Below, one piece after another: positions 481 through 46,609 of a DNA stretch of 64,000 bases. The notes below the pieces were generated by a model. That model saw only the letters and a program-made list of their open reading frames with translations, did no database searches and was not told where the DNA came from. Within the stretch, counting starts at the first letter, position 1. Each line of letters starts with the position of its first letter. The position numbers were made by a program, and so were the translations under genes. Origin of the DNA: Loxodes magnus (Eukaryota > Ciliophora > Karyorelictea > Loxodida > Loxodidae); contig CAMPDV010002822.1 of assembly GCA_946699065.1 (NCBI GenBank), positions 1-64,000 of the forward strand, written 5' to 3'.

Positions 481-2388
481 TTATATTATCTATATATTTT
501 AATTAATGATAGTCTATGTTAATATTAAATAAAAATCAAAGCTGATTTATTAGGTTAATCTGGTAATGTCTATCTTAGTAAAGTATGTATTTAAATATAA
601 TGTTTATATAATTTTTTATTAGTTTATAAATTTTAAGATATTTTGTTGGAATCAATAATTAAAACATTTAAATATTTAACAACATTATTTCAAAATTACT
701 ATCTAATTTTACTAACTACAGATATCAAAACTATACAACATTTTAAATCACTAATTTCATTAAATATATTCAACAACTAATATACCAAAATATCAATCTT
801 CAAATTACCTATTTATTCTTATACTTTAAATACTTCCCACATAAATATACTAAATATATGTGTGCACCAAAATACATACACACATTTTCAATCATCTCTA
901 CTTTTTATACATTTCCTTAAATAATTTGTAAAGAATACAAATATAAGACACAATCTACTTAAACTAACCATTTATTTTTAATCAAATATCAGAAATTGAT
1001 TTTCAATTATATTAAGATTTTACAAAGAAAAAGAAATTAAATATTTGAAAATATCTATTAAAACTAAATAGAATTAAAGGTATAATTAAAAGAAACTTTT
1101 ATAAGCGATGATAAAATACAAGAAGACTTAAGAAACCACATGAGAAAAGAAGTTTGACATTTTATTAAACATAAACTTAAATAAAGTGATGTTTCTGAAT
1201 AAAAAAGAAGCTTCATTTAATAGGAATATTTATTAAAGTGAAATAATTATAAATTTTATAGTTTAAGGTTTATTAAATTATTATTAAAGATTTATCTCTT
1301 AATTAATCTCATTCGAAACTATATTTACTATGAAATATAAACTTATTTTATTATTTCTTATGATTAATTAAATATCTTGTATTTACTTTAAATAAATATA
1401 AAACCATATTTATTCTTCTTTATATAGAATACTTATTTAAGATCTATTATTTTATTCTTAAACTAATTTATTACTAACTTCTTTAATTATTCGTTAAATT
1501 AAAAAATATTTCATTTATATAGCTTCTAAAATTACTTAATGAATATCTTAAAAAAAAATTAAATTTTAAAATTTTATTTTTATATCAAGACAAAATAAAA
1601 TTTCTAAGAATTAAGAATCAACAAATATAGAAAATTTGACATAGAATGTTAGATTAAGGATTTATTACTTTATTTTATTTCTGAGTTTGTATAATTTATG
1701 ATATTATAATAAAGTTTAGCTTTTTTATATTCAATTTTATTAATTAATTAAAAATAGATTTTTTATATTTGTTTTCTTATCATTATTTTTAATTTATCTT
1801 TTTTAATTTTTATTATATATAATTAAAGCTTTTATAAAGATGTTTTTATTTATAAATTTTTAATTTATTTCTCTTTTTATTATAATATTTTATTTTGATG
1901 CTTTGTTTTACTTTAATATATTATGAGAGCCAATTCTTTAATGATTAAGCCTCCAATATTATTAATTATGTGTTTTAATCAGTTTAAGCAATACAATTTA
2001 ATCTTTTTATTTTATTTATTTAGTTATATTTAAAGCTACCTCATACTGTAGTTTTACCTTAAATTTTCTTTTTTTGTTCTTATCTAGTATATTTATCTTA
2101 TAAAATGACTTATTCATATGTGAAATTAACATATATTATTGCTTTTTAAAGATTAATTTTAATAATTACATTAATTAATTTTATTTAATAAGAATAATTA
2201 ATTTTATATCTACACTTGCAAATATAAATATTTCACAGGATTCTAAAATTCAAAAATCTTTTAATTGCTGGAAACGGAGAAGGCTTAAAAGAATGAAGTA
2301 AAAGGTGAGAAGAATATATGATTTATTAGTAAATGATGAGATTTAAGACATAATAAAAAAATGAAGTAAGTAAAATTTTAAATTGCGA

Positions 2389-2690
2389 TAATATCTCTAA
2401 TCTTAGAGAGTTACCCGGTCTATTCCAAGATTTTGAAGAAAGTTTGTTTGAAAAATTATCTGGCTTTATAAGGGTTAGAAGTTTATGATTTTCGAATTTA
2501 TATTCATTACTCAATGTTTCTCTGTTTGCAGAAACTGATTAGCAGTATATCTGTTATAACTATTTACAATTTCATCAGAAAGAAAAACATGATGAGAACT
2601 ACTTTTCACAAGCATTAGAAGTTAATATTTCATTGATTAAAAAAATTCGCAAGCATCTTTTGGGTAAATAAAGCATTTATAATAATAAAA
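2389..2690 (+). CDS. short hypothetical coding stretch inside the duplication
   Basis: With the reassigned code one frame gives about 95 residues of mixed, protein-like composition, including NLRELPGLF, FEESLFEKL and HDENYFSQALEVN. One TGA lies where Trp is plausible (SLWFSNLYSL). The matching stretch in the second copy (about 28560-28820) keeps much of the frame but has several indels. I recognise no family and cannot place a start. It may be an exon of a larger gene or a gene relic. Confidence 0.3.
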
Positions 2691-3029
2691 TTTCAAACAC
2701 TTTTTTAGTTAAAAAATTTAAATTTAAAATTATTAAGTAACTTTTATTATACTATGAGATTAAATATACACAGAATTAGTTCAAACTTAAAAATTAACAT
2801 TATTTAAAATTTGTTCTTATAGATAAAAAAGTAACTTTTTTAGTAAAATTATAGAATAATTAATTTTAAAATTAACATTTAAAATTGTATTACTTTAAAA
2901 ATTATTCAGATTATCTTTGTCTTAATTATAAATTTAGAACTAGTATTATCATGCACTAAGTATAAATTTAAAATTATTTAAAATTAACGATTTAAATTTT
3001 TTAATAAGTACATATTAAATTATTATATT

Positions 3030-3563
3030 TTAAAATCGCCATAGTTGTTAGAAGGTGAACAGCAAGGTCGTCTTCATCAGAGGGGAAGTTAAGTACCCAT
3101 AATCGACTTTATGTCTTCCTCTGCTTTGGTTTGGCCTCGAGACATAAGATTCTTAGACCTTCGGCACTGGCTTCATTTATTTTTAACTCTGGAACTAAAA
3201 AGAAATAATATTGCGAGCTTCATCAGAGGTGGGGAATTTAAGGTACCCATTAATTGGCACATGTCGTTCCTCTGCTTTGGTGATGCAATGAGACACAATC
3301 CTGCCATGTCCTTGGACCTCCAGCAAGTATTAAAGATTACGAATTATTCTAAAATTATATCAGTATTGAACATTTTTATCTATACTGAATAATTATACCA
3401 GTACTGAACAAGGTTTATAAGTATCTGATAATTTTAATCAGTAACAAACATTCTTGTCAGTATGAAACATCTTTTTTTAAAGAGCTACGCACCAACGAGA
3501 GTGCTACGCACTCTATAATCAAATTTATTTATTTATTTATTTGATTATTTATTTATTTATATT
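3030..3563. mobile_element. 534 bp insertion present only in copy 1 of the duplication
   Basis: The second copy reads straight through this point (29170-29190). Here about 534 bp interrupt it, flanked on both sides by TTATATT (3023-3029 and 3557-3563), which looks like a target-site duplication. The insert is richer in G+C than its surroundings. It holds a ~110 bp segment present twice (about 3069-3170 and 3215-3335; shared blocks CTTCATCAGAGG and TTCCTCTGCTTTGG). After that come four degenerate CAGTA-type repeats (3361-3470), a hairpin (3498-3514) and an ATTT run. There is no transposase. It could be a small non-autonomous element or a ciliate internally eliminated sequence. Confidence 0.6.
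3498..3514. other. perfect 7-bp hairpin in the insertion
   Basis: AGAGTGC and GCACTCT pair perfectly around a TAC loop. The motif GCTACGCAC occurs twice within 25 bases (3484-3492 and 3503-3511). It sits just before the AT-rich right end of the 534 bp insertion, so it may be a terminal structure of that element. Function is unknown. Confidence 0.5.
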
Positions 3564-4263
3564 AGGATTTGAATTAATGAATATCAAAATATATAATTTT
3601 CATATCTTCAATAAAAAATTAAATTGTTTTCTCAAATTAAAAAAATTAAACCTTTTAAGCTTTATTAGTAGATCAACAAACATTTCAAAAGATCTAACTT
3701 GAAGATTTTAATGTGTTTACTATTTAATATATTATTTTCTCTCATCTCTTTTTTAATAATTTATAATTAATTTATTTTATGATGAAAAATAAATTTTTAA
3801 TCATAATTTGCTATTTAGCAATTCTGAATTCATAAATATATATGAAAAAAATTTAATATTTTCTAATTGTCTTTTTATTAAATTTATCATTCTTACCTAT
3901 AATAAATATCAAAAATAGCAAAATAAATAAATTCTTATATTATAAAAAGTAAAAAATTGTATAAAATAAATCTATATTAAAAATATTTTTATTTTAAATT
4001 TAGAGAGATGTAATTAACAATTTATGTAGATAAAATGATTTACTTTATTAAAATATATCTAAATATATTTACATCTTTTTAATATAAATCTCCTTAAAAA
4101 TTTTGTCCATCTTTAAAATTTCCTGAAGTGAAAAAAGCAAAAAAGAAATTTTAAAATATTTAAAATATTACTAATTTCTCTAATACTTTTTATCTAAAAA
4201 TTTTTATACTTCTAACGATTTTATCTTTAAAAAAAATTGTAAGCCTTAGCATTAAAATTTTTA

Positions 4264-5600
4264 TTCCGTCCGAAAAATCTCTTGTAGTGTAAAACGCTGA
4301 GCAAAAAAACAAAATAAAAATTTTTCCATTTTATTTCGATGTTATAGTTAAAAAATAACTGATAGAGATTATTAAATAACTTTATTAGACATTTTATATT
4401 CAAATTGTCAAAATTTTTTCCAAAATTAAAAAAAATTCTATTCAATGCTTAATTTACATTATGACTCCCCAAATTTTTAACCCATAACCTTAAAAAATAT
4501 TCATTTTATAAATATTCGATTATTTAAATTAAAAAATATCCGATCTCTTTAAATCAAAAAATTTTTTCTTATTCCGTCCGAAAAAAACTCTTGTAGTAAT
4601 AAAACGCTGAGCAAAAAAAACAAAAATAAATTTTCACGCTTTTTGACTGTAAAAACATTTTTTACTTTTTAAATATTTATTTTCAAAATTAATCTTAAAA
4701 AATTTTTAAATTCTTGAAACCAAAAATATACTTTGTTCTTAAAAAAAAAATTAACTCCAAACTAATTTGAAAAAAAAATTTGCGTTTTTTTTGAAATTAA
4801 AAAATCTTAAATTTTTTGTCTTATTGCAGTTCTAAAAAACATTTTAATTTAAAAATTTTTTTTAATCACTTCAATTATTTGTTAATTCCCAATATTAATA
4901 TAAACTTTTCACTAATTCCGTTTCTCCTTTTAAAATTAATCCATTCTCCTTCATATCCTTTACTTAACAAATCTCACTCTTTAATAATTTAATCAACACT
5001 CCCCTTCCCTTATCCCTTTTTACACTTTTTTAGTTCCATTTCAAATTTTTTTTGTCCTAACTTTCACACTTTTGTTCCGACGCCACTTTTCCCTATAGTG
5101 CAAAAACGCTGAGCAAAAAAACAAATATTTTATTTTCGCAATTTTTATAACTCTTTTAAACCCTTTTCTACTTTTTCAATTCTTATTTTAAGAATTGTCT
5201 TAAAAAATTATATGTTCTTAAATTCAAATAATATTCTTAAATTAAAAAAAATTACACTACTTAATTCTAAAATTCTTTCTTTTCCTCAATTATCTAAAAT
5301 CTCAAACACTTTTTTTTTTATTCGCAACTCAAAATATTTTTTTTCATTTTAGAAAATTTTGCACTCTCCTCTCTTAAATTAAACAAAAGTATAAATTTCA
5401 ACTAATTCCATTTCTCCCTTTTAACTAATCCATTCTTAATCTTATTAAAACTTATACTTAAAAAACCTCACTCTCTAATATATTCATTAAACATTACCAT
5501 CCCTTTTTACCCTTTTATTAGTTATGCTTCAAATTATTTTATGTCAAAAAAATCAATTTTGTTCCGACAGAAAATATTTTTTTTAGTACAAACAATGAGC
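4264..5600. repeat. four degenerate copies of a TTCCGTCCG...GCTGAGC box, copy 1
   Basis: Boxes at about 4264-4301, 4571-4612, 5076-5117 and 5562-5600 share TTCCG(T/A)C..., then (A/T)GTG-AAA-CGCTGAGCAAAAAA. The first two are closest and the last is most degraded. On the minus strand each gives GCTCAGCGTTTT...ACTA(C/T)(A)AG, which could hold a 15-16 nt intron. The DNA between boxes 3 and 4 encodes a repeated LxxLL(K/E)SE(I/V) pattern on the minus strand. This suggests internal repeats of a gene downstream of the TRIM-like gene, but I could not join exons with confidence. Confidence 0.5.
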
Positions 5601-6099
5601 AATCAAATATTCTATTTTCATTATTTTTATACGTTTAAAAAACATTAATTAAATATATACTATTACACATCATTAAATTATTAAATGCATAATCTTTAAA
5701 ATAAATAATATATAATAACTTTAAAATTATAAAATTATAAATAATATTATAATTATAAAATTATAAATAATAAAATTAAAATAATTACCTTCCTTCTTTT
5801 ATAACAAACATTTAACTTTTATTATCTAAAAAACAATCTACTCATTAAAAAAAATACCTTTAACATTCTTTATACTCTTTATACTCTTTTCACTCTTTAT
5901 AATATTTATATTCCCTTAATAGTATTTATACTCAAATAGTATTTATAAGCAACTTTTATTTACTAACCATACACACACTAAATAGTATTTATAACCAACT
6001 TTATTTAAACTTATAAACAATCTTTCATATATAAATATATAAACTCATAAACATATAACCATATAAACATATAAACATATAAATATAAATATTATGTAA

Positions 6100-6480
6100 T
6101 TAATAAGAGTTATTATTAAGTATATCAGTTGTTCACTCTCATACTTTGTGACCAGACTCATCCATCACTACAACCATGAAATTCATACAACCTGAATTCA
6201 CATTAACAAACTCACACCCCCCTTATTTCACAAAACATACACTCTATTACATTATCTTTAAACCATTTGTACCAACTTATATTAATTAAAACTTACCATC
6301 TATTTAATTAAAACGTAAAAAAACAAACTTACATACTAATTCTTACTCCAATTATTACATTCTAAAATTAATATCTAAACCTAAAATACCTTCTTCTAAT
6401 ATTGATTAAAATATATATTACTATCCGAAACTTATAAACATATGTCAAATTGTATATTACCAACTGATCAGTAATACTTA
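6100..6480 (-). other. probable exon/micro-intron region downstream of the array, copy 1
   Basis: On the minus strand, sequence after the array keeps the form AG-NNN-GTA: codon-sized pieces AAT, TAT, ATG and TTG each lie between an AG and a GTA. Then comes a longer stretch starting WYKWFKDN that is shared with the second copy (about 31800-31995). In that stretch a Trp codon is TGA here and TGG in copy 2 (VMDESGHKVW against VMDKSGNKMW), as expected if it is translated. I therefore think a gene continues past the array. Its exon structure is not settled, and no domain is recognised. Confidence 0.35.
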
Positions 6481-6481
6481 C

Positions 6482-6791
6482 AATCTATACAGTTAAGAAT
6501 ATTAAAATGCTTACATCCTATAATTTAAGAATATTAAAATAACTTACCTAAGTTAAGAATATTAAAATAACTTACATGCTATAAGTTAAGAATATTAAAA
6601 TAACTTACCTAAGTTAAGAATATTAAAATACTTACCTAAGTTAAGAATATTAAAATGACTTACCTAAGTTAAGAATATTAAAATTTTTTACGTTCTATAA
6701 GTTAAGAATATTAAAATGCTTACATCCTATAAGTTAAGAATATTAAAATAACTTACAATCTATAAGTTAAGAAATATTAAAATAACTTACC
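6482..6791 (-). repeat. intron-like tandem array, copy 1 (10 units)
   Basis: Ten tandem units, read on the minus strand (the strand of the TRIM-like gene). Each begins GTAAG(T/C), runs through ATTTTAATATT to CTTAAC, and ends in TTAG or TTATAG, so every unit has a 5' splice site, a branch-site-like CTTAAC and a 3' AG. Units ending TTAG abut the next GTAAG with no spacer. Units ending in TATAG are followed by exactly three bases (ATT, GAT, AAC, CAT, GAT, ATT) before the next GTAAG. The 5' neighbour is a longer intron-like piece starting GTACGT. The 3' neighbour is an 18 nt piece ending ACTGATCAG. Confidence 0.8.
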
Positions 6792-6829
6792 TATTTTAAA
6801 AAATAAAAGTTTAGAAATGTAACGTACTT

Positions 6830-8655
6830 CCTTAATATAGATTATTTACCATCTACATATATTATTTAAAATTAACTCCATCTCATTTATAACTATTCCC
6901 CATCCATTATATTTAAAGATTGCATTGTCTAGTTGAACTCTAACTTATTGCCATTCTTATAGATAGCCAATGACCATCAGTATAAATTTGTTTATTCTTA
7001 TATCATGTTCTTTAGTTATCCGATAGTAGTGTCTTGCTTAACCACAAGCTTCACAGATTTATTATTCGGAGATACTATTGATATTATGGATTTCATATTT
7101 CATTATCCTTGCTCGTAACTCATTCGACTAACTAGTTAACTATTTCCTTTCCTCCAATAAATTTTTATCTAGTTCTCCAAATTAGATCTCTCCTATCGCA
7201 AACTCTCTATCTACTAACCCAACTCAAGATTTAATGAAATATTATTATTATTAGCCTTTGTAACCACATTCAAATCACTTTCTCTCTAACTATTTTACTC
7301 ACTCAATTTATTGATTTAAACCCTTAAATTATCATTGTCCTCTCTCTAAAGATCAAACTCATTCTACAACTCTCTTATTCTTTACTCTTTCTATAAATCT
7401 TGCTTTTCATACTACTACTATTTAGATATATTCCTCTAATCCTTCTCTTGAATAACCTACAACAACTCACTTATTCGTAATTTATATTAAACACCCTCAC
7501 TCGATAAACTCTCTATTTACTCACTCAAAACCTTAGACTATTCCTATAGCTTATCTTTACATCCTTATAACTCGAAATCCTTTTACTATAAGATAGCATT
7601 CTATTACTATATCAAACTCTTTTTTTATAATTATTGATCCTCTATTACTTTCTAGTTACGAGATATTTATTCCCTCAAGTCAGTCAACAACATATCCTTA
7701 TCTCTTATTACCTAAACAACTTTTATATTTGTTCTTCACTTTTCTAATTGACACTCTCCTATGATTTAGCCTACAACTATAACTCCTTTCATAAATGCTA
7801 TATAGTTCTCTAAAAAGATTATTTCTATTCTCTAACTCGCAACTCCTATAGCGGCTGAATCTCCTTTATCATTTTCTCAAAGACCTAAACTTCCATATTC
7901 TTTAAACTAAGATAGCCTTATACTAAGAATATTTTTACTCATCCTTTATTCACTTCTCTTATAACTATACCTCCAATCTCTCTATCTCCATCTTCTTTTT
8001 CTCACATTACTATATAGTAGCCTATTACATTGACCCGATACTCTTTAGTCTTTCAAATAGATTTATTTTAACCCATTTCCTATCTACACTATTCACCTTA
8101 GTCCTATACTCTTAACACCACCTCCTCACATGCTTACTCTAAACTTCTCTTGATTTTATCATAGATTTATACTATATATTTAATATTTATCGCATAATCC
8201 TCAGACAATTACTTTTATCATTGACCTAAAACAGAAGAATATTGCTTTAACCTCTCCTTTATAACACTCAAAGTCATTTACATACGAACTTACATAATAG
8301 GAACGATCTCCTCTTGTCTAACACATTGATGATTCTTATGAGAATCCTATTAACATTTTTCACATATTAATGCACTATCATTCAGACAATACAATGATAG
8401 AATCTCATTATGCTACTAACATATACTCAATTGGCTTTATTTGGACTCCTCTTAAAGATGTAAATCTAGTATTTACAATTCTTCAATTGGTCTATCAGTG
8501 ATGATGTTGTGATTGTTGCATATGAACTTCTTTTAAACTTTGTAGATACCTCTCAAACATCTCTCACAGATGATACATCCACAATCACATCTTCTAGGCT
8601 TTTTAAGCTCTTAGTTGAAGCCTTTTTCGCAAACTTCACATTTAGATGCTTGCAT
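6830..8655 (-). CDS. TRIM-like protein: RING, B-box, coiled coil, ubiquitin-like domain (copy 1)
   Basis: ATG at 8655 (minus). Residues 6-50 form a RING-like finger: CEVC, then CDCGCIICERC, then a CNNH block. Around residues 80-115 is a B-box with CQQHNEILSLYC, LICEKC and an HKNH pair. Next comes a long Gln/Glu/Lys-rich coiled coil. The C-terminal part resembles ubiquitin: VKLVIKQDTTIGQLKDMIEQ, LAIYKNGNKLE and QTMQSLNIM. RING/B-box/coiled-coil proteins are usually E3 ubiquitin ligases that oligomerise through the coil. The appended ubiquitin-like fold is unusual for the family. A TGA in GQWQKQL reads as Trp. One extra T near 8066, compared with copy 2, breaks the frame and could be a sequencing error. 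The gene may continue through the intron-like array. Confidence 0.7.
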
Positions 8656-8699
8656 TTTATTTTTTGAATAAACTAAAAATTAAAAGAAACTAAATTTTT

Positions 8700-10255
8700 G
8701 GCTTAAGAGATACTTAGATATTAATAGTATTATTTTATTAACTTAATACTTAATAAATAGAAGAATAATTACTATTAAAATTAATATATAAAATGGAAGA
8801 ATTTTCCCTCTAAAATATTACTATATAAATAATATTTTGTTACATAGCCAAGGGATACGATGAATTTTAGGAAAATATAGGAAAATTAGTAAGCCTAAAT
8901 AAAAATTTAGTAGAATAGCTAGATGATACCTATAATAGCCTCTAGTAGATAACTAAATTAATACGCGTGACATAATATCAAAGAAAAAATAACAAATATT
9001 TCTAATCATTACAGAATCTAACTTAAGTTATAATCACATCCAAGGTTTCTCGCTTATCAACTACAAATAACTGAGAAGGCTAATAGTTAATCTTAACTAA
9101 GTTTAACAAGTTTTTTGAAATGCTGATCTCTTAGAGTTGACAAAAAGATGATATTTCTTTTAACTAGTTGAAAAACCTAGAAAGACTGAAAAACTACATT
9201 TAGTGCTTAATGCTTTGCTATATTGAAATAGAGTTTAAAAAAAAAAAACGCAAGATAGCATATTAATTTTGACTTATCCTCAAAAAATAGACTTGTAATA
9301 GAACCTCTTTAATCTGAAGTATTATTCGTACTTAGAATAGAAATTAAAACTTTAAGAATAGATTAAGAGTCACTAACATTGGATAAGTATGAGTAACAAA
9401 ATAAAAAACAAAAATTTTTAAAGCACTAGTAAACATAATAAGTGCAAAGGTATTTTTTATAGTGCATGGAAAGATTGAAACATTAGATTGTTCTAATTTT
9501 AATGAATATATGAAAAAATTAGAGATTAAATTAGCATGTTGAATATATTACTGTTCTCTTAGGTGAGGAAAGTAAAATAACAAGATATTAAAAAGCTCGT
9601 ATGAAGAAATTCTTCGTGCTCTAATACTCATAACATGCTAACTAAATACTTTCATGAATCAAGAAACTAAAAGTCTGTCATTTAATTCTAAATTACAAGA
9701 TTAGCATTCAATCTAATTACGGTGATGCCTAGAAAACTGATGAAACCAAACACTATTTAAAATCAGTTTTTTTTTCTTGAATGATCTTTATCAGAGATTA
9801 TGTATTTTTAGATTTTCAGTTCCAAAAAAATAAGGCTCTTCCAAAATATCTGTTGCTAAGCTTCACGAATACAATATTCATCAAGTAAAGAAAAAAGATC
9901 CTCTCTCAAAAAGAAAGCTCCTGCACATATATTACAGGATCACTTATCATTTTTATAGCAATATACATTTGGAAGATTCATATTTAATACAAATGTGTGA
10001 ATTTCTAATATTACGTTCTAAAATTTGAAGTGATTTTAAAAGAAAAAAAATTGAATATCTGTTTGCATTAAAAGAATTTTAGCTCTTTCCTTAGAATCGG
10101 AATTTCATTTAACTAAGTCCTTAAACTGAAAGCATTAAAGGGTTTAAACAATTAATTGCTTAAATTACTTGTATAAGCTTTTATAGTCGTTAGTTTACTT
10201 TAGGAGTAAAATGTAGTTAGTAAAACTGTTAGGAGCCATCGAACTTTTTACCTAC
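8700..10255. other. AT-rich DNA upstream of the TRIM-like gene; no clear gene
   Basis: The first ~900 bp belong to the duplicated segment and are well conserved between copies, including a rare ACGCGTG block near 8964. They may hold the promoter of the divergent TRIM-like gene or a gene I could not read. From 9614 to 10255 the sequence is unique in the window, and I found no frame that looks like protein over more than about 40 codons. Confidence 0.3.
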
Positions 10256-15666: not shown

Positions 15667-18600
15667 ATGAAAAACTTTTTTCCTTATTTATACCATTCTC
15701 TGCCGTTATTTCTTTTAAGCTACTTTTAATTACTTCACCTTTGACCAAACCCCATTTAGCTTAATATTTATAGCTTGGATTGGAAACTAGCATGTTTAAT
15801 AAAACAGATTTCTAGACTTCAACTTTGTTTATAGGAAATTGAAAAATATAAAATTAGGTTTTAAAAGAGAGAAATAAATCCTACAAAGTACAAATAATCC
15901 TGGATATTACTTTCAGTGTTTATTACACTCAAAGAATAAGCAACTTGGAATTATCTGTCCTTCATCTTGTGGCATATAGAACTAATTAGCAGTTTTAAAG
16001 AGAAAATATTTATTCAATAATGCCAACTTACCAACAAGAAGGTAAAGCACTTTAAGATTTATTCAAATTACTTAAATTTACCAAAGTCTTTTATTTTAAC
16101 TAGAAAGAAGAACCATTTTATAGAGCACCAGAGGCAGATGTTTATTGATAACTCTAAATACTGAAAATAACTTCATCATATTGGACATCTAAAAGTCAAT
16201 ACGCTTGAATAGTTGGTTTAGAATCTTCCAATATAATGAATCCTGAAGTAATAGCCACTATAGATGAAACAAATTTTAGTAGTGTCCTAGATGATGGATT
16301 AATTGGATTAACTCCAAAAGGATTTATTCCCCAAAAATTACCTTGAATTATCATATTACTATGTCAATCTATTCTTAGCCTTAATAGATTAAAATTCTCA
16401 GTTTTTAAGTAAGATTTATTAAAGTAATTTGCCTAAATATTTTAAGGGCCATTCAGCTCTAAAATTTTAATGACAAAAATCAAATTATTCCAGTGTTTTC
16501 TGTTTACAATATTCAAAATAGGAAACCAGTTTAAGTTCTTCAAATTTAGAATGAAAATCTGAAAAAATTAGTAGTGTTAGTTTACCCTGGACCAAGCTTA
16601 ACAGCGCCTAATTATGATTTTAAGATAAAAATGTCTTATTCAACTAATGATAATGAACCTAATAACTAAAGCTCTAAGAAAGTTATTACCAATCCTCCTC
16701 TTTTTATGCCCTTCATTATTGGATTCATTAACAAAGAAGAAATTTTAGCGAATAATTATTCTTTATAAGAGATCCCTTATTCTTATGGGGGCTTTAATTT
16801 GATTAAAATTTTAGCTTATAAGTATTAAACGAAAAAGACTTTGATTTAGGAGTTGTACATCAAGGTAGCTTAATAATAAGAAGCTACTATTTGACTTATA
16901 ATCTTCTTTAAAATATAGGAATAAGAATTCCTTACTTAATTGCTAGTAAAGAAGACGAATTAAGTAATAGTTCCATATTCACTAACGTAATTGATAACTA
17001 TATCTCTTAAAAGCGTTTTAGTGATATGTATATCAAATTTATCAATAAAAATTAATGAAACTAAGTTGGAATGTTTTTTGAAGAATATGAGCCTTCTAAC
17101 TTTTAAATATAAAATGAAATAAAAGTTAAAATAATTGAGGAAGGCAAGAATATCTTAAACTCTAATGAATCTACTTTTATATTGTAGAAAGATTTATTTA
17201 ATCAGACTCTTTACGATGATATTGCTTACTAAATTATTTAAAGACAGATCAAAATCATACTTTCATCTCCTACTATGGCTTTAATTTACCAGACTCTTTC
17301 AATATTTTTTTACCTAAGATGGAAAGAAGGAGATACAAATTTTATTCTTTTATATACTGCTAATAACATAGAAGCTGTGATATAAAATAACATATGGCAA
17401 GCTTAAAAGCTTTTGCATGGTTCAATAACAATTACTCCTATTTAATATATAGGAGAAGTTGGATAAATGCTATATCAACTACAGAAAGATAGTATAAGTA
17501 ATATTCCCTAAGCTCCTTGCTACTATGTAGAATAACCATTTATAGTTGCTCATGGTCTTAAAAGTTGTATTCAACAGGGATTAAATTACTATAATTCAGA
17601 TATTTTAATTACTTAAATTAAAAATACTAAATTTACAGCATGTAGCGGAACCATAAAATTCCATAAGAATAGTAATTTTAGGGATAATTTAAACTTTTAT
17701 TTCATGAGCAATATTTATGATTCTAATAGAAATCTACACTTAGTACCTTATCTTTAGTACTGCTAAATTTTTGCTATTGTATGAAATAAACATAGCGAAG
17801 CTATTTGAAATGATAATACAACTAACAATCCTAAAGATACTTTTGAACTTTATCGTGATAACTGGGATTTTTCAGTACGAAGAGTTTAAAAAATATAATG
17901 AAGGATTTAGAGCGATAGTTATATATTCAGTGTTAATTATGCTTCTTACCTTGCTGGTTTCAATTTATGGAATAAAGATTTAGAAATCGACAAATTTTGA
18001 AATTTTAGATTAAGAAAATGTGAATGAGTAGTGAAGATGACCTCTTTCTCAAAATTATAGTTGTTTAGTTTGGCTTCTACATTTTGATAGGACCTGATGT
18101 AAGAAACTTACTTTTTTAAATTCCAATCATTTAGAATTTTTCCTTAGATTTCATAGTTAAACAAATAAGTAGTTTAGCATTTTGGGAAATCATTAATCTT
18201 TGTAATGGTTTTGCTTTTTTAATTACTCTCTTAATCTTAACTTTCCTGTTCTAATTTGAAATAAGATACAAAAATAGTTGGATACTAAGAAACTTAGGGT
18301 AACTAACATATATAGTTTCACCTGCTTTAATAGAGTTCACTTTCATGCCAATTATCTATATTTTAACTGAAATACTAAAGTGTAGCTATGGAAGAGATGA
18401 AAATGTTGATTTCAAAATTTTGCAATCAGAAACATTTTTAGATTTAGACTGTTCTAAGCAATGTATTTCAAAACCACATATTATAACCATAGCATTTTAA
18501 AGTTTAGCTTTGTTCTTCTACATTCCTTTAGTAATAATGTTTAGTCCACACTGGTAAGAGCTGTTAGTAGTCACAATTCATATAAAGTATCAGCCTTGGT

Positions 18601-18849: not shown

Positions 18850-21800
18850 TCTAGATTGTATGGGAAATTTATTTTATAGTTAGACTTTTTAACTAGGAAA
18901 GGTTATTTAATGAATGGTTTAATTTATTTTAATAAATCTTTGTAAATGAAATAGTTATTCTAAATCTTCTACTTTAAACTTATAACTTTATTATTTATTT
19001 CCCTTTTATTTCTATTCTTTATATTAAGCCACCTCACTCTTATTGAAAGCAAAATTATCTTAAGAAGTCTTATCAATGATAGCTGTTTTAGTGCTATTTG
19101 ATCTATTTACTCTGCTTGTATTTTCGTAAGATTAAAATTCTTCTTAGTTTTCTTAAACTTCTAGCTTACTTTCCCTAGATCTTATACTCATTAACTACTA
19201 TTTTCTTTTAAGTTGCATAAGCAATTTTTAAGTTTCAATGCTTTGCTTATCTACTGTCTCTGCCTCAATTGCATTTGATAGTAGCATATCTGTTGATATT
19301 TGCAGCCTTTAGTTTTAAGCTTGGATATGTTGCTTTAATATGCTAGGATCTATCCTTAGTTTATATTAGAACCTAAACAAATTAACTAAATCAGGTTCTA
19401 TTTATTTTAGCAGCTTTTTATACCTAGACATGACTACTAGCCCTATAGTTAGAATGATCACTATACCTACTAAAAGTATTACTTGCAAAGTAATTCTATG
19501 ATTATCACTTGCATTTATAGATATTCCTGATATAGTACCTACTAATGCTACTAGTAAAAGAAGAATAAACTATAGTCAGTTAACTTTCTAGTAAGTAATT
19601 ACCTTTTTTATTAAAACTAAGCAAAAGTAAAGAAGGTAATAGAGTATATGATAGCATGACTAATAGGATACAATTAAGTATCTAGTTAATAAGTACTAGA
19701 AATTAGCAAATCAAAGTCTTTAGAATTATGAATCATGTCTTTCTACTTTATATTAATGGTGTCTTTCTGAACTTCCTATCAATGTGGACGAATCAATATA
19801 ACTAGTGGAACATAGAAAAATAAAGCTAAATTACTAAATATTATAGTTATTATATGAGGTTAAGAAAGACACTACTTGGAACAATCTAAGTCTAAAAAGG
19901 ATTCTCAAACTTCTATTTCAAAGTTTAGATTACTATCCCTTCCATAACTACATCTCATTATTTAAGCTAGTAAGAAAAATTACTCCTATCAAAGTTATTT
20001 CTATCAAAGCTGGAGAGCATTTATAAGTTAGTTTTCCTTTATTTCTAAGTAACTTCAAATTATAATAGAACAGCTATTGCCAATAATACTGTTAAGAAAC
20101 CAAAACAACTTCATAGCTTTATTATATCTCAGAACGCTAAATCTGTTACTCTCGTTGTCAAATAACTAAACGAAATAGACTAAACAGAATTTATTTAGTA
20201 TAGAAGTGGTCTTAAATCAGGTACTAATAAAATGTATTAGGCAAATTAAATAAAAAGTATCTATGAAAAGAATTCATCTTCACTTGTCATTCATACTTCT
20301 TTGCTCAAAATTTCCTATTTTCTAGATTTTCATATTTTAAATCCAAAAAGTTAAGTTAGCAAAGCTATACTAAATAGTACTACTTATTATATTATTATTG
20401 CGTTGTATCCTCTCTCATATTTTTTAACTCTCCGTACTGTAAAATCACAGTTATCACTATATAGTTCAAATTAATCTTTAGGAATGTTAGTTGTATTATC
20501 ATTTCAAATTGGTTCATTATGTTTAGTTCAAAACGATGGACAAGTTTGGCAGTACTCAAGATAAGGCACAAGATGTAGATTTCAGTTAGAATCATAGTAA
20601 TTATTCATAAAGAAGAAGTTCTGATTATCTCTAAAGAGGCTATTTTTCTCAAATTTTATGCTTCCATTACATCCTAAAAATTTCTTATTTCTCATTTTTT
20701 TAAATCAGATTATCAGAAATATAGTAGTCTAAGCCTTCTTCTATGCATTGCTAAAGGCCATATGCTAATATTATTGGCTATTCTAAGTAGTAGCAAGAAG
20801 TGAAATGAATAGAGCTATTACATTACTCTTGTATTTCTAGTAATTTTTAGCCTTCTTCTCCTACATACTCAATTGGATTTATGGTCATTAAACCATTTAA
20901 AAGTCTTCTTACAGCTTTGAGTACTTCAGGCTAAATTTAAGCTTCGTAATTATAAGCATTATATAAAAACACAAAATTAGTATCTCCCTCTTACCATCCT
21001 AGTTCCATTAGTTTATCAACTGAAAACCAAATAAAATTAGCAGCAGGTAAGGAAAAGATAATTTTGATTTCCCTTTGCATGATTTGATTTGCAAGTTGTT
21101 CATATACTTGAAGATTTCATACATTATCTCCTTTTATGAAAGTAGTATCATAAGAGTTCATTACAGTTCTATAAGTTTCTTAAAGATTTTATATGCTAAA
21201 ATTTCAAATTTATCTATTTGAAGGCTCGAAATCTTCGAAAACAATTCCAACTTTATTTAAATTCATTTTTTCAGTTAATTTGAGGTACATTATATCAAAT
21301 AAATTTCAGGAAATGTAGTTATCTAGAACATTACTATAGAGATTGGTGCTGTTAAGTTGATCTTCTTTACTTGTAATAATATAAGGAATATTAATTCCAA
21401 GTTATTAGAAAGTAAAATAAACTGGACTTCGATTTGATATGATCAAAGACGCTAAATGGCTAATTCCTATATCACTTTATTATCTGCAAGTACTTATAAA
21501 GTAAAGCTTAAGTTGAAATACAACCAACCATAGGACAGTGGATTCTCTTTAAGTAAAGATCTTCCTGGTATTATTTTTTCTGTGTTTATGTAAGAAACTA
21601 CACAAGGAATGTGATAAGAGGGTAATTAAAGAATCGATTAAGATGAAGACATTTATGATCCGTTAGAGTTAGTGGAATAAGAAAAATCTATATAAAAATT
21701 ATCAGGTGGAGTGTAAGTTTGTCCTGGATATAGCACTGAATTCTTCTATATTACCCAATCCTAAGATATTTGAAAAACTTCATCAGGCTATCCTTTCTAG

Positions 21801-27376: not shown

Positions 27377-29880
27377 GAGAAAGTAATAACTATTAAGACT
27401 TTTAATTTTACAATTTAAGAAGTTTATTATTACTATTAGGTAAAGCATACTATGTATTTAATTACGTATAAAAGCTTTAGATTATATAAACCAATTAAAA
27501 ATTAAGATATTTACGCATGGTAAAAAACAAAAAGACTTAAGAAACAACATGAGAATAGAAGTTTGACATTTTTAAACATAAACTTAAATAAAGTGATACT
27601 TCTGAATTAAATCAGAAGCTTCATTTAATAGGAATTTGATTAAAGTGAATTAATGATAAATTTGATAGTTTTAGGTTTATTAAATGATTATTAAAGATTT
27701 ATCTCTTAACCAATCTGCTTTAAAACTAGATTTGGTATGAAATATAAGGTTATTTTATTATTTGTTATGATTTAATTAAATATCTTGTACTTATTTTAAA
27801 TAAATATAAAACATTTATTCTTCTTTATATAGAATACTAATTTAAGATCTTTTATTTTATTTTTTAACTAATTTATTATTAACCTCTTTAACTATTCGTT
27901 AAGTTAAACTAATTATTTCAATTTTTTAATTTTATAACTTCTAAAATTACTTAATTAATATCTTAAAATAAAGATTTATTTTTTATAATACGACAAAATT
28001 AAATTTCTAAGAATAAAGAATCAACAAAATTAAAAAAAATAGACATAAGATGTTAGATTAAGATTTATAACTTTTATTAATTTCTGAGTTTTTATAATTT
28101 ATGCTATTATAATAAAGTTTAAACTATTTTTATATTTAATTTTTATTAATTTATTAAAAATAGCTTTTTTATATTTGTTTTCTTATCATTATTTTTTATT
28201 ATATATAATTAAAGCATTTATAAAGATATTTTTATTTATACATTTTTTTAATTTCTCTTTTTATTATAATCTTTTAATGCTTTTGTTTTACTCTAAGTAT
28301 GAAAATTAATTCTTTAATAATTAAGCCTCCAATATTATTTAGTATGTCTTTTAATCAGTTTAAACAATACAATTTAGTCTTTTTATTTTTTCTTTTATTT
28401 TGCTATATTTACAGCTACTTCATTCTGTAGTTTTTTCCTCAGATTTCCCTTTTTTTGTTCTTAACTTGCATTATTATGCTGTAAAGTGACTTGTTTTAAT
28501 GTAAAATTAACATATATTATTGTTTTTTAAAGATCGTTTTAATAATGACATTATTTAATCTTAGAGAGTTTCCCGCTGTATTTTCCAAGATTTTGAAGAA
28601 AGTTTTTTTTTAAATTATCTGGCTTTATAAGGGTTAGAAGTTTATGATTTTCGAATTTATCAATGTATTATCTGTTTGCAAAAACTGATTGGAAGTATAT
28701 CTGTTATAACTATTTAAAATTTCATTAAGAAAAAGAAACATGATGAGAATTACTTTTCACAAATATTAAAAGTTAATACTTCATTGACTAAAAAAATTCA
28801 CAAGCATCTTTTGGTAAATAAAGCATTTATAATAATTAAAATTTTCAAAAACTCTTTTGTTCAAAAATTTAAATTTAAAGCTAAGTAACTTTTATATGCT
28901 ATGAGATTAAATCTATACAGAATTAATTCAAACTTAAAAAATCAACGCTATTTAAAATTTTGTCTTATAGATTAAATAAGTAACCTTTTTTAGTAAAATT
29001 ATAGAATAATTATTTTAAAATTAACATTTAAAATTGTATTACTTTAAAAATTATTCAGATTATCTTTGTCTTAATTATAAATTTTAGAGTTAGTATTATC
29101 GCGCACTAAGTATAAATTTAAAATTATTTAAAATTAACGATTTAAATTTTTTAATAATTAGATATTAAATTATTATATTAGGATTTGAATTAATGAATAT
29201 CAAAATAAATAATTTTCATATCTTCAATAAAAAATTAAATTATTTTCTCAAATTAAAAATTAAACTTTTTAAGTTTTTATTAGTTGATCAACAAACATTC
29301 AAAAGATCTAACTTGAAAGATTTAAATTTTTTTACTATTTAATATATTATTTTCTCTCATCTCTTTTTTAATAATTTATAATTAATTTATTTTATGATGA
29401 AAAATAAATTTTTAATCATAATTTGCTATTTAGCAATTCTGAATTCATAAATATACATGAAAAAAATTAAATATTTTCTAATTGTCTTTTTATTAAATTT
29501 ATCATTCTTACCTATAATAAATATCAAAAATAGTTAAGTCAATAAATTCTTATATTAAAAAAGTAAAAATTGTATAAAATAAATCTATATTATAAATATT
29601 TTTATTTTAAATTTAGAGAGATGTAATTAAAAAATTTATGTAGAATAAAAATGATTAACATTATTAAACTATATCTAAATATATTTATTCTTTTTAATAT
29701 ATATCTCCTTAAAAATTTTTCCATCCTTAAAATTTCCTGAAATTAAAAAAAAGAAGTTTTAAAAATATTTTTTAATTACTAACTTCTCTAATACTTTTTA
29801 TCTAAAAATTTTATACTTCTAACGATTTTATCTTAAAAAAAAATTGTAAGCCTTAGCATTAAAATTTTAAAAATTTTTAT

Positions 29881-31170
29881 TCCGTCCGAAAAATCTCTTG
29901 TAGTGTAAAACGCTGAGCAAAAAAAACAAAATAAAAATTTTTTCCATTTTATTTCGATGTTATAGTTAAAAAATAACTGATAGAGATTATTAAATAACTT
30001 TATTAGACATTTTATATTCAAATTGCCAAAATTTTTTCCAAAATTAAAAAAATTATTTTCCATGCTTAATTACATTATGGCTCCCCAAATTTTTTAACCC
30101 ATAACCTTAAAATTTATTTTATAAATATTCGATTATTTAAAATAAAAAATATCCGATCTCTTTAAATTAAAAAAATTTTCTTATTCCGTCCGAAAAAAAC
30201 TCTTGTAGTATAAAACGCTGAGCAAAAAAACAAAAATAAATTTTCACGCTTTTTAACTGTAAAAACATTTTTTACTTTTTAAATATTTATTTTCAAAATT
30301 AATCTTAAAAAAAAATTTAACTCCAAACTAATTAGAAAAAAAAATTTCGAATATTTTTGAAATTAAAAAATCTTAAAATTTTTTTTTCTTATTGCAGTTC
30401 TAAAAAAAATTTAATTTAAAAATTTTTTTTTTAATCCAACTTTTTTTAATCACTTATTTTTTAATTCCCAATATTAATATAAACTTTTCACTAATTCCGT
30501 TTCTCCTTTTAAAATTTATCCATTCTCCTTCATATCCTTTACTTAAAAAACCTCACTCTTTAATAATTTAATCAACACTCCCTTCCCTTATCCCTTTTTA
30601 CCCTTTTTTAGTTCCATTTCAAATTTTTTGGTCCTAACTTTCACACTTTTGTTCCGACGCCACTTTTCCCTATAGTGCAAAACGCTGAGCAAAAAAACAA
30701 ATATTTTATTTTCATTATTTTTATACTATATAAAACTTTCAAACTTTTTCAATTCTTATTTCACACATCACTCTTAAAAAAAATTTAATATTCTTAAATT
30801 AAAATAATACTTTACATTAAAAAAATTACACTACTTAATTAACAAAAAAATTGTTTTCCACTCTCTAAAATTAAAAATTATCATACTAATTTTGTCTTAT
30901 TCACAAACTCAAAATACTTTTTTCAAATAGAAATATTTTTTTACTCTCCTCTCTTAAATTAAAAAAAATTATAAACTCTCAACTAATTCCATTTCTCCCT
31001 TTTAACTAATCCATTCTTATTATTAAAACTTAAACTTAAAAAACCTCACTCTTTAATATAATTTCATCAACACTCACATCCCTTATCCCTTTTATTAGTT
31101 ATGCTTCAAATTATTTTTGTAAAAAAAAAATCACTTTTGTTCCCACAGAAAAATCTCTTATAGTGCAAAC
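29881..31170. repeat. four degenerate TTCCGTCCG...GCTGAGC boxes, copy 2
   Basis: Counterparts of the boxes in copy 1, at about 29881-29917, 30184-30225, 30652-30690 and 31139-31175. The last has lost most of the CGCTGAGC core. Spacing and divergence follow copy 1, so the internal repetition predates the segmental duplication. Confidence 0.5.
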
Positions 31171-31799
31171 AATGAACAAAAACAAATATTTTATTCTCAT
31201 TATTTTTATACTATATAAAAAATTATTTTAAATATATAACTATTACATTTCCTTAAATTATTATACGCAAAATCTTTAAAATAAATAATATTTAATAACT
31301 TTAAAATTATAAAATTATAAAACTTAAATTATAAAATTATAAATAATAAAATATAATAGGATTAAAATTCTTTACTTAATAATAATTAACTTTCTATTCT
31401 TTATCCACAACATTTACTTTTATTATCTAAAAAACAATTTACTCTTATTAATTTAAAAAACAATTTACTCATTAAAAAAAAATACCTTAACACTCTTTAT
31501 ACTCTTTTCACTCTTTTCACTCTTATCACTACCTACACTCTAAATAGTATTTATACTCTAAATAGCATTTATAAGCAACTTTTATTTACTAACCATACAC
31601 ACACTAAATAGTATTTATAACCAAATTTATTTAAACTTCAAACAATCTTTCATTTATAAACATATAAACTCATACATATTAACATATATATAAATATATA
31701 CATATATAAATATATAAATATTAATATAGAAGAAGAAATACCTTGAAACTATAAATATGTATACATATATATAAATATAAACATATAAACATATATAGT

Positions 31800-32198
31800 T
31801 ATTTATTTAATTTTTTTAATTAATAAGAGTTATTATTAAGTATATAAGTTGTTCAAAACCACATTTTGTTTCCAGACTTGTCCATCACTACAAAAATGAA
31901 ATTCTTACAACCTTTACTCACATTAACAAACTCACCCCCTTATTTCACAAAACATACACTCTATAACCATTATCTTTAAACCATTTGTACCAACTTATAT
32001 TAATTAAAACTTACCATCTATTTAATTAAAACGTAAAAAATAAACTTACATACTAATATTTACTCCTATTATTACATTCTAAAATTAATATCTAAATCTA
32101 AAATACCTTTTTCTAATATTGATTAAATATATATTACTTGAGTAAACTTATAAACATATGTCAAATTGTATATTACCCCCTGATTAGTAAATACTTGC
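31800..32198 (-). other. probable exon/micro-intron region downstream of the array, copy 2
   Basis: Minus-strand counterpart of 6100-6480. It keeps AG-NNN-GTA junctions with AAT, TAT, ATG and TTG, then a frame WYKWFKDNGYRVYVLWNKG. A 32 nt piece with GT...AG ends (GTGAGT...TGTAAG) can then be removed to continue as NFIFVVMDKSGNKMWFW. The joined reading keeps a Trp where copy 1 has TGA. Exon boundaries are my inference. Confidence 0.35.
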
Positions 32199-32853
32199 AA
32201 TCTATTCAGTTAAGAATATTAAAATAACTTACCTAAGTTAAGAATATTAAAATACTTACTCACTATAAGTTAAGAATATTAAAATGCTTACCTAAGTTAA
32301 GAATATTAAAATAACTTACCTAAGTTAAGAATATTAAAATAACTTACTAACTATAAGTTAAGAATATTAAAATGCTTACATTCTATAAGTTAAGAATATT
32401 AAAATACCTTACCTAAGTTAAGAATATTAAAATAACTTACCTAAGTTAAGAATATTAAAATAACTTACCTAAGTTAAGAATATTAAAATAACTTACCTAA
32501 GTTAAGAATATTAAAATAACTTACCTAAGTTAAGAATATTAAAATAACTTACCTAAGTTAAGAATATTAAAATAACTTACCTAAGTTAAGAATATTAAAA
32601 TAACTTACCTCCTATAAGTTAAGAATATTAAAATAACTTACCTAAGTTAAGAATATTAAAATAACTTACCTCCTATAAGTTAAGAATATTAAAATAACTT
32701 ACCTAAGTTAAGAATATTAAAATAACTTACCTAAGTTAAGAATATTAAAATAACTTACCTAAGTTAAGAATATTAAAATGACTTACTAACTATAAGTTAA
32801 GAATATTAAAATAACTTACCATCTATAAGTTAAGAATATTAAAATGCCTTGCC
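32199..32853 (-). repeat. intron-like tandem array, copy 2 (22 units)
   Basis: Same unit as in copy 1: GTAAGT at the start, CTTAAC near the end, TTAG or TTATAG as terminus, 28 or 30 nt long. Fourteen-odd units abut directly as CTTAG|GTAAGT. The eight (T)ATAG-ending units are each followed by exactly three bases (ATG, TTA, GAG, GAG, AAT, TTA, TGA, ATT). The first unit on the gene strand starts GCAAGG, and the piece after the last unit is a 19 nt GCAAGT...ACTAATCAG, another intron-like form. Twice as many units as in copy 1 shows the array has grown or shrunk since the duplication. Confidence 0.8.
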
Positions 32854-32899
32854 TAAGTTAAAAATAAAAGCTTAGAAATGTAACGTACCTCCTTTAATT

Positions 32900-34717
32900 A
32901 GATTATTTACCATCTACATATATTATAAAAAATTAACTCCATCTCATTTATAACTATTCCCCATCCATTATATTTAAAGATTGCATTGTCTAGTTGTTCT
33001 CCAACTTATTGCCATTCTTATAGATGGCCAATGACCATCAGTATAACTTAGTTTATTATTCTATCATGTCCTTTAGCTATCCGATAGTAGTGTCTTGCTT
33101 AATCACAAGCTTCACAGATTTATTATTCGGAGATACTATCGATATTATGGTTTCATATTTCGTTATCCTTGTTCGTAACTCATTCATCTAACTCGTTAAC
33201 TATTTCCTTTCCTCCAATAAAATTTATATCTAGTTCTCCAAATTAGATCTCTCCTACTTCAAACTCTCTATCTACTAACCCAACTCACGATTTAATGAAA
33301 TATTATTATTATTATCCTTAGTAACCACATTCAACTCATTCTCCTTCTAACTATTTTACTCACTCAATCTATTGATTTAAACCCTTAAATTATCATTGTC
33401 CTTTCTCTAAAGATCAAACTCATTCTACAACTCTCTTATCCTTTAGTCTTTCTATAAATCTTACTTTTCATACTACTACTATTAAAATATATTCCTCTAA
33501 TCCTTCTCTTAAATAGTCTAAAGCAACTCACTTAATCGCAATTTATATTAAACACCCTCACTCGATAAACTTTTTATTTACTCACTCAAACTCTTAGACT
33601 ATTCCTCTAACTTATCTTTATAACCTTATAACTCGAAATCTTTTTACTATAAGATAGCATTCTACTACTAGATCAAACTCTTTATTTATAATTATTGATT
33701 CTCTATTACTTTCTAGTTACGAGATATTTATTCCCTCAAGTCAGTCAACATCATATCCTTATCTCTTATAACCTAAAGCAACTTTTAGATTTATTCTTCA
33801 CTTTTCTAATTGACACTCTCCTATGATTTAGCCTACAACTATAACTCCTTTCATAAATGCTATATAGTTCTCTAAAAAGATTATTTCTATTCTCTAACTC
33901 GCAACTCTCATAGTGGCTGAATCTCCTTTATCATTTTCTCAAAGACCTAAACTTCCATACTCTTTAAACTAAGAATACCCTTATACTAAGAATATTCTTA
34001 CTCATCCTTTATTCACTTCTCTTACAACTATACCTCCAATCTCTCTATCTCCACCTTCTTTTTCTCACATTACTATATAGTAGCCTATTACATTAACCCG
34101 ATACTCTCTAGTCTTTCAAATAGATTATTTTAACCCATTTCCTATCTACACTATTCACCTTAGCCCTATACTCTCATCACCAACTCCTCACATGCTTACT
34201 CTAAACTTCTCTTGATCTTATCATAGATCTACATTATCTTTTTCCAATTTAACTTGTAATCCTCAACCAACTACTTTTATCATTGACCCAAAACAGAAGA
34301 ATATTGCTTCAACCTCTCTTTTATAACACTCAAAGTCATTTCCATACGAACTTACATAGTAGGAACGATCTCCTCTTATCTACCACATTGATGATCCTTA
34401 TGAGAATCCTATTAACATTTTTCACATATTAATGCACTGTCACTCAGACAATACAATGATAGAATCTCATTATGCTACTAACATATACTAAGTAAGTTTT
34501 ATTTGGACTCCTCTTAAAGATGTAAATCTAGTATTTCCAATTCTTCAATTGGCCTATCAGTGATAATGTTGTGCTTTCTACAGTTAAACATCTATTGTAT
34601 TTTGTAGAAAAATTTCAAACATTTTTCACAGATGATACATCCACAATCCAACTTTCTAGGTTTTTTAAGCTCTTAGTTGAACTCTTCTTCACAAGCTTTA
34701 CATTTAGATGCTTGCAT
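32900..34717 (-). CDS. TRIM-like protein: RING, B-box, coiled coil, ubiquitin-like domain (copy 2)
   Basis: ATG at 34717 (minus). About 600 codons in one frame, with no interruption I can see. The RING-like finger has CKACEEEF, then LDCGCIICEKC and CRKH. The B-box has CQQHNEILSLYC, LICEKC and HKDHQC. The coiled coil runs over about 350 residues (for example QLQIKSLIQQQNAILQQKDF). The C-terminal ubiquitin-like fold starts VKLVIKQDTTIGQLKDMIEQ and has LAIYKNGNKLEN. Known RBCC proteins act as E3 ubiquitin ligases. The terminal domain might let this one dock on ubiquitin receptors, which is inference. It ends close to the intron-like array, where a GTACGT could be the first of its introns, so the true C-terminus may lie beyond. 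Confidence 0.75.
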
Positions 34718-35910
34718 TTTATTTTTTGAATAAACTAAAAATTAAAAGAAACTAAATTTATGGCTTAAGAGATACTTAGATATTAATAGTATTATTTTAT
34801 TAACTTAATACTTAATAAATAGAAGAATAATTACTATTAAAATTAAATTATAAAATGGAAGAATTTTCCCTCTAAAATATTTGCTATATTTAAATAATAT
34901 TTTGTTACATAGCCAAGGGATAAGATAAATTTTAGGAAAATATTGCGAAAATTAGTAAGACTTAATAAAAATTTAGTAGAATAGCTAGATGATACCTATA
35001 ATAGCCTCTAGTAGATAACTAAATTAATACGCGTGACAGAATATCAAAGAAAATTAACAAATATTTCTAATCATTACAGAATCTTAACTTAAGTTATAAT
35101 CACATCTGAGGTTTCTCGCTTATTAATTACAAATAACTAGGAAAGCTAGTAGTTAGTCATAACTAAGTTTAATAAATTTTCTGAAATGCTGATCTCTTAG
35201 AGTTGACAGAAAGATGATATTTCCTTTAACTAGTTGAAAAACTAGAAGAAATGGAGAATTACATTTAGTGCTTAATACTTGCTATATTGAAATAGAGTCT
35301 AAAAGAAAACGCAAGATAGCATATTAATTTTGACTTATCCACAAAAAATAGACTTGTAATAGAACCTCTTTAATCTGAAGTATTATCCATACTTAGAATA
35401 GAAATTAAAATTTTAAGAGTATACTAAGAGTCACTAACATTAGAAAAGTATGAGTAACAGAATAAAAATTTAAAGCAACTAGCAAAAAAGAATAATTACA
35501 TGGAGATTATTTTATAGTAGCATGTAAGGATAGAAACTTATGATTTTATTAATTTTAATGAATATATGAAAAATTAGAGATTAAATTAGCATGTTGAATA
35601 TATTGCTGTTCTCTTAGGTGAGGAAAATAAAATCACAAGTTATTAAAAAGCTAGTATGAAGAAATTCAAACACCTTTAAAAATGATTATAGTTAGTTATT
35701 AAAAATGCTATTAATCTTAATGTATAATACCAGGGTTAATTTCTAGAGAAGTGCAAAATTCTTTTTAATTTCCTACTTATTAGCCAAAATCCATTTCAAC
35801 TATGAAAATCTGCATCTCACCTCGTACTTATTAGTTATAATAAATTATTATAATCTTTATAGCTCCATATAGGTCAAAAAATTTATCATTATTCTAGCTG
35901 AGAAACAAAA

Positions 35911-45420: not shown

Positions 45421-45429
45421 ATTTATTAT

Positions 45430-46570: not shown

Positions 46571-46609
46571 TATGTCTAATACTTTACTAGTTTAAGGTTT
46601 TAATCCTTT

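Follow-up and report, generated by a model that had tools for sequence, protein, structure and literature searches.

Two arrays of near-identical intron-like units in the ciliate Loxodes magnus raise the question of whether the three bases that recur between the units are exons one codon in length or spacers that never reach a mature transcript. Both arrays lie on the minus strand of a 64,000-nt stretch of contig CAMPDV010002822.1 (C2822), referred to here as the window, the GC content of which is 24%. The copy 1 array (6482..6790) comprises 10 units, with six 3-nt slots (ATT, GAT, AAC, CAT, GAT, ATT) and four zero-nt joints, and the copy 2 array (32199..32852) comprises 22 units, with eight 3-nt slots (in order, ATG, TTA, GAG, GAG, AAT, TTA, TGA, ATT) and 14 zero-nt joints. 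The window contains no open reading frame of 150 amino acids under the bacterial code and no run without stops of more than 157 codons under the standard code. In L. magnus, UAA and UAG encode glutamine, and the host gene was translated with TAA and TAG as Gln and TGA as Trp. In the account of the published 706 Mbp MAC assembly, UGA is either tryptophan or stop and is the sole stop codon (PMC11441545); the genome-wide counts given below refer to an assembly of 705,730,643 bases.

The first-pass annotation had claimed that every unit with a TATAG-like end is followed by exactly three bases and then GTAAG. The spacing was found at all 14 joints that follow TATAG- or AATAG-type ends in the two window copies, whereas the motif that follows is GTAAG at 13 of them and GCAAG at one; the first unit of the copy 2 array also starts with GCAAG. 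Units with a TTAG end are followed directly by the next unit (the other 18 joints of both window arrays). Genome-wide, the pattern TTCTTAACTTATAG-N(0-9)-GTAAG has 1168 matches, with spacers of 3 nt in 1157, 1–2 nt in four, 4–9 nt in three and, by subtraction, 0 nt in the remaining four, so that the rule, for which spacers of other lengths at the same frequency had been named as the contrary outcome, is borne out across the other arrays of the assembly. Reversed-pattern controls gave 0–1 matches, which together with these counts rules out chance as the cause of the 3-nt spacing. Insertion with a 3-bp target duplication is likewise ruled out, since successive slots usually differ.

A joint-by-joint parse of 40 arrays, made with a wider parser and excluding L018, L044 and L045, gave 324 joints of 0 nt, 345 of 3 nt and two of other lengths, both in L047; hence 345 of the 347 non-zero joints hold 3 nt. 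An earlier parse of 20 arrays (near-duplicates L003 and L010 dropped, L018 counted apart) gave 162 zero and 157 three with no other length, and 15 arrays fetched once the rule had been stated gave 138 of 0, 135 of 3 and three longer pieces, which hold units missed by the parser; none of these arrays is odd in the 40-array parse. As many of the arrays are related, the joints are not independent events, and the zero-nt joints probably represent one ancestral junction that has been copied many times. The claim that joints are always of 0 or 3 nt therefore holds in the 40 arrays bar two joints but not in L018, where 9 of 169 joints are odd (154 of 0, 6 of 3). L018 (contig C979:102000-111999) has approximately 170 units over 5 kb, nearly all with zero joints and with several defects of one to a few bases, and is possibly a dead or expanded copy. 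A search for other intron-like arrays among repeats of period 12–70 with at least three copies, covering 290,116 bases (36 sources) outside rows of this family, detected none; GTAAG and TAG were found together in only one such repeat row, that of L023, at its own array.

The context of the arrays is that of a protein-coding gene. Copy 1 of the host gene (6125..8655, minus strand) runs from a start codon at 8655-8653 to a TGA at 6125 and encodes, in order, a RING-like region, a B-box, a coiled-coil-like stretch and a ubiquitin-like (Ubl) domain, followed by the array, a set of micro-exons and the last exon; copy 2 (31845..34717, minus strand) starts at 34717-34715 and has TTA at the position of the last-exon TGA. 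The RING-like Cys motif and B-box of copy 1 occupy approximately 8310..8655 (minus strand). The B-box matches Pfam PF00643 above the cut-off (E 1.5e-9), as is found in TRIM/RBCC proteins, and is preceded by the spacing CxxC...CxCxxCxxC...CxxH, which was judged RING-like by eye and has no Pfam RING match. The coiled-coil-like stretch is a long Gln/Leu/Glu-rich open frame, for which the Pfam coiled-coil match is weak and below the cut-off (0.02). The Ubl domain of copy 2 (32939..33175, minus strand) matches PF00240 above the cut-off (5.1e-8) and, against the PDB, ubiquitin variants (best 3.3e-4); an AlphaFold model of the single Ubl sequence (mean pLDDT 51.5) gives the strand-strand-helix-strand order only. 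A candidate 22-nt intron inside the Ubl region was ruled out, as the frame continues straight across it. A homologue search with the N-terminal part of the protein returned 15 candidates, none of them significant.

Values of dN/dS are 0.75 for the coiled coil and 1.09 for the Ubl exon (16 copies each), and 1.23 for the last exon (21 copies). Within the Ubl exon, seven codons occur in at least five states, and several of these presumably lie on one helix face and the adjoining loop, by ubiquitin numbering. Relative to the family alignment, the coiled-coil exon of copy 1 has lost one nucleotide and, close by, gained one, and L022 has an extra base in the Ubl exon. A 5′ intron model of 34, 17 and 20 nt fits copy 1 but does not maintain the frame in copy 2; it is incomplete. 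Given the indel pair of copy 1, the extra base of L022, and the TTA and lost frame of copy 2, individual copies may be pseudogenes.

The family was detected at at least 66 places in the assembly, a count of places rather than of distinct genes that includes allelic or duplicate contigs and near-identical pairs. In the window, direct duplications at 1108-9612 and 27517-35667, approximately 26 kb apart and composed of blocks that are 83–93% identical, enclose both gene copies, and several further contigs carry two or more gene copies tens of kb apart. The window also contains two inverted pairs, one of approximately 2.6 kb (44721-47290 and 59084-61708, 76% identical) and one of approximately 0.8 kb (17314-18104 and 20210-21002, 72% identical). 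Four of 22 copies (L011, L014, L017 and L020) have another upstream part, with approximately 56% identity to the consensus where the two align, and keep the same cassette of Ubl domain, array and tail, which suggests, at the level of sequence, cassette exchange between families. A different gene, L045 (1-3505; contig C241), encodes repeats rich in Asn, Leu and Ser and, after them, another ubiquitin-like domain (PF00240, 3.3e-8). Located 3′ of it are small candidate exons (GTG, ATAAAG, GAA, AGA) and then an array with the unit GTAAGTTAATTTAATATTCTTAACTTAG, in which the joints are mostly zero in the part inspected; nine 3-nt slots listed at 426730-428668 of the contig are all CAT.

The sequence on either side of the array appears to be divided into further very small exons. 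In copy 1 (all coordinates minus strand), the Ubl exon is followed by a putative intron of 24 nt (6853..6876; 23–25 nt in aligned copies) and two putative micro-exons identified from sequence and alignment, ATG (6850..6852) and GAN (6828..6830), the latter being GAA in copy 1 with a third base that differs among copies. Beyond the array are e1 (TTG, 6461..6463), which is variable and has a length of 3 nt at all 66 exact genomic matches; e2 (9 nt, 6422..6430), hypervariable, and e3 (6 nt, 6390..6395), variable, both from the alignment of copies; and e4–e7 (AAT, TAT, ATG and TTG, 3 nt each, 6273..6361), which are nearly invariant and separated by introns D5–D7. The last exon, e8 (6125..6243), encodes ECMFCEIRG..VCQCEFRL.. 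and ends, in the chosen frame, at TGA; it is 116, 119 or 125 nt in 21 copies. The gene order is therefore Ubl exon, ATG, GAN, array, e1, e2, e3, e4–e7 and last exon, and the putative introns of the host gene are 17–37 nt.

Indels distinguish the proposed exons from the proposed introns. In the same 21 copies (L010, near-identical to L009, was dropped, and the last-slot fragment cut by the anchor was not counted), e1–e7 are constant in length and e8 changes only by +3, +3 and +9 in three copies, while introns D1–D4 and D6–D8 differ by 1–2 nt and D5 is constant. Heterozygosity is 0.276 in e1–e3, 0.043 in introns D1–D8 and 0.026 in e4–e7; not every micro-exon is variable. The suggestion that the slots are what single-codon exons would look like thus gains support from the coding flanks, from the micro-exons in multiples of three and from exon indels that are multiples of three only, all of which is evidence from genomic sequence.

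Within the arrays, the slot is the most variable element. Among 304 units of 29–30 nt, which were selected for a TATAG end so that their last five bases are fixed by the selection, the per-base entropy of the slot is 1.91, 1.33 and 1.87 bits, compared with at most 0.14 bits in the 5′ GTAAG and a maximum of 0.37 bits over the final 21 bases of the intron. At the middle position of the slot, 281 of the 304 units have A or T and only two have C. When whole strings are considered, slot entropy is 4.34 bits (28 triplets among 350) and that of the 2–3-base head that follows GTAAG is 2.14 bits. The description of the unit as nearly constant, with variation confined to a codon-sized slot, hence applies to the intron core and to the slot as the most variable site, but the head varies as well, to a lesser degree. 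The head also differs in length: of 498 units, 181 have 2 nt between GTAAG and TTTTAAT and 317 have 3 nt. Length thus shifts freely a few bases from the slot, which provides an internal control. The repeat period is not fixed either, array introns being 26–32 nt and back-to-back units 26–28 nt.

These patterns bear upon two explanations in which the slots would encode nothing. If the array were a minisatellite drifting neutrally in a dead region, a single founder repeat would have passed on the 3-nt rule, a proposal that accords with the probable single origin of the zero joints, with the variable unit head, and with the decay or frameshifts seen in L018, L047 and some gene copies. The slots would in that case be expected to be roughly as uniform as the remainder of the repeat, yet 25 different triplets occur among 135 slots in the 15-array set and 35 distinct slot strings occur in the 40 arrays; variation is not spread over the repeat regardless of position, as it would be in a neutral minisatellite, and the flanking exons show indels in multiples of three only. 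Drift, which the first-pass annotation had already regarded as a poor explanation, is very improbable in light of the contrast between slot and core and of these flanking indels. The other proposal is that the array is a minisatellite within one long composite intron, removed as a whole between its first GT and its last AG, such that the slots never appear in mRNA. A single long removal would also keep the frame, the slots being multiples of three, and the giant array of L018 would be easier to remove at once. Nothing in such an intron would hold the slot at 3 nt (1157 of 1168) while a stretch five bases away varies between 2 and 3 nt, and it accounts neither for the variability of the slot, which far exceeds that of any other part of the repeat, nor for the multiples of three at isolated micro-exons outside the array; we consider it unlikely.

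It may alternatively be supposed that the excised introns are themselves the product, the array being a tandem source of nearly identical 27–30-nt RNAs and the slots mere spacers. The units are indeed numerous and almost identical, and tandem introns with RNA products exist, as described for the SNORD115/116 host gene (PMC11608373). A spacer would, however, require neither hypervariability nor codon size, and no Rfam match was obtained at gathering thresholds within the window, making this the most improbable of the readings considered.

If the slots are instead exons, their reading phase depends on the exons at either end. In the chosen frames the Ubl exon leaves one base over and the last exon takes one in, from which it may be deduced that the micro-exons and slots are read in phase 1, each codon being formed by the last base of one slot and the first two of the next. 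The frame of the last exon was selected by eye on two grounds: block changes (for example, TTT to AAA) coincide with its codons, and it terminates in TGA in both copy 1 and the consensus. Two formal tests on multi-base changes did not single this frame out, and pN/pS is lower in another frame (0.097/0.154, versus 0.112/0.092 in the chosen one), so that the agreement in phase is weaker than it appears; that this frame is not firmly established also leaves room for the composite intron. Phase 0, in which each slot would itself be a codon, was set aside because the flanking exons in their chosen frames give phase 1; read in that phase, 21 arrays would use only 13 amino acids, with NAN, NTN, AGA and TGA as the codons, and later arrays add TGG and GCT slots.

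Neighboring slots are themselves linked in a manner that the composite intron does not predict. In a test on distinct neighboring slot pairs from 35 distinct arrays, the information shared between the third base of a slot and the two bases that open the following slot is 0.147 bits, compared with 0.075 in shuffles (z 4.1, 1/1000), while other junction measures give z of 1.8, 2.2 and −0.5. The link has a z of 4.7 (0/1000) between directly adjacent slots but is weak across zero joints (z 1.8, 46/1000). Identical neighboring slots are in excess (z 2.3; 8/1000 shuffles reach it). The slot-to-slot link supports the phase 1 reading, although common descent of neighboring units may inflate it.

Joined and translated in phase 1, the slots of 21 arrays (excluding L003 and L018 but including the near-duplicates L010 and L021) would give MRWNG, a hypervariable stretch of 5–31 slots, and V..LYV(E/G)CMF(C/Y)EIRG, except that two of the arrays have another residue at the tail V or altered spacing of its neighbors. 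The stem MRWNG was typed in from the consensus and occurs in 19 of the 21 copies, the other two having MEW. Loops rich in Tyr and Trp are associated with binding, and these are the commonest residues of the predicted loop in the 21 arrays (21 each of 182); a larger set of distinct neighbor pairs gives Gln 0.094, Tyr 0.089, and Trp and Lys 0.079 each. A Tyr+Trp test (4/1000) was chosen after the composition had been seen and is not counted as evidence.

The best explanation of these observations, and one we regard as probable on the genomic evidence, is that the slots are single-codon-length exons, that the intron-like units are spliced out and that the joined slots form a hypervariable loop. 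Each near-identical 26–32-nt unit (GTAAG...TTTTAATATTCTTAACTTATAG) would be a spliceosomal intron, and the triplet that separates TATAG from the following GTAAG an exon kept in the mRNA in phase 1. TTAG-GTAAG units would represent back-to-back introns flanking a zero-length exon, either removed stepwise, like ratchet points, or skipped together. Were the introns removed in turn from the 5′ end, each codon-length exon would join the growing upstream exon, and the resulting loop of 5–31 residues would follow the last strand of the ubiquitin-like domain, carried by a TRIM-like protein with RING-like, B-box and coiled-coil-like regions. To our knowledge, there is no precedent for the consecutive splicing of 10–50 such introns, or in one case 170. 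Points that tell against this explanation are the A/T bias at the middle slot position, the variable unit head, the odd joints of L018 and L047, and the frameshifts in some gene copies. A further counterpoint is the length of the array introns (26–32 nt), which exceeds that of most L. magnus introns described in the published account, where the mode is 17 nt, 93% are no longer than 25 nt and annotation allowed up to 40 nt (PMC11441545). Although the array introns fall within this 40-nt limit, such arrays could have been missed by an annotation based on the mapping of short RNA-seq reads (PMC11441545), since reads that cross several successive 3-nt exons would be difficult to place.

If units were to recombine unequally through their almost identical introns, loop residues would be gained, lost and reordered, and no frameshift would result because every repeat holds exactly one codon length. 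Blocks repeated inside arrays (AAT GAA TTG - AAT in L042 and CTA TAT - in L029) resemble the outcome of unequal exchange between units. Of five array pairs with identical slots, two have unequal numbers of zero-joint units (22/23 and 24/22), a change that would be silent in the protein. We are inclined, by a little, towards the broader proposal that the array is a codon-by-codon generator of diversity, in which an intron minisatellite builds a CDR3-like loop for target recognition on a ubiquitin-like scaffold in a single-celled eukaryote. If the slots are translated, they would take exon size to its extreme, with serial exons of a single codon length or of zero length, and would provide a new route to hypervariable loops in which the recombining repeats are intronic, carry no protein cost and leave the frame protected. 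Splicing would then have to cope with dozens of tiny introns in succession, and the family would point to hypervariable TRIM-like recognition, in immunity or self-recognition, in a ciliate.

Several elements of this arrangement are known individually from the sources cited below, namely single 3-nt exons, micro-exon genes with exons in multiples of three, and zero-length recursive sites. A search of openly accessible journal articles yielded no description of tandem near-identical short introns that spell out a hypervariable loop, and a term search of the main text of PMC11441545 did not return micro-exon, B-box or ubiquitin. The micro-exon genes (MEG) of Schistosoma resemble the present family in having many tiny exons, mostly in multiples of three, within a variable gene family; their exons are given as 6–81 bp (3–81 in the abstract) and their introns as 100 to almost 5000 bp (PMC10526429). 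In the Loxodes genes the exons are similarly short multiples of three (3, 9, 6, 3, 3, 3 and 3 nt for e1–e7 in 21 copies), but the micro-exons are mostly 3 nt, the introns are not long (17–37 nt) and are nearly identical in the array, and the product would be one loop of a domain protein. Recursive splicing, as described in PMC8605326 and PMC5126111, uses juxtaposed 3′ and 5′ splice sites with a zero-length exon, as the zero joints would; the cases described there concern long animal introns, whereas the units here are 26–28 nt and occur by the dozen. That a one-codon exon can be spliced is evident from the 3-nt micro-exons described in RPS24 and in Drosophila (PMC12686416; PMC8042270). Slots of the present arrays are by comparison tandem and hypervariable. 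The RPS24 and Drosophila exons are single and conserved and are not known to be tandem or hypervariable, and the finTRIM proteins of fish carry a B30.2 domain at their C-terminus. The finTRIM family, with RING, B-box and coiled coil and a diversification through duplication and selection (PMC2657112), resembles the Loxodes genes, which have a B-box between a RING-like motif and a coiled-coil-like stretch, but the C-terminal part of the Loxodes protein is, unlike that of finTRIM, a ubiquitin-like domain followed by the putative micro-exon loop.
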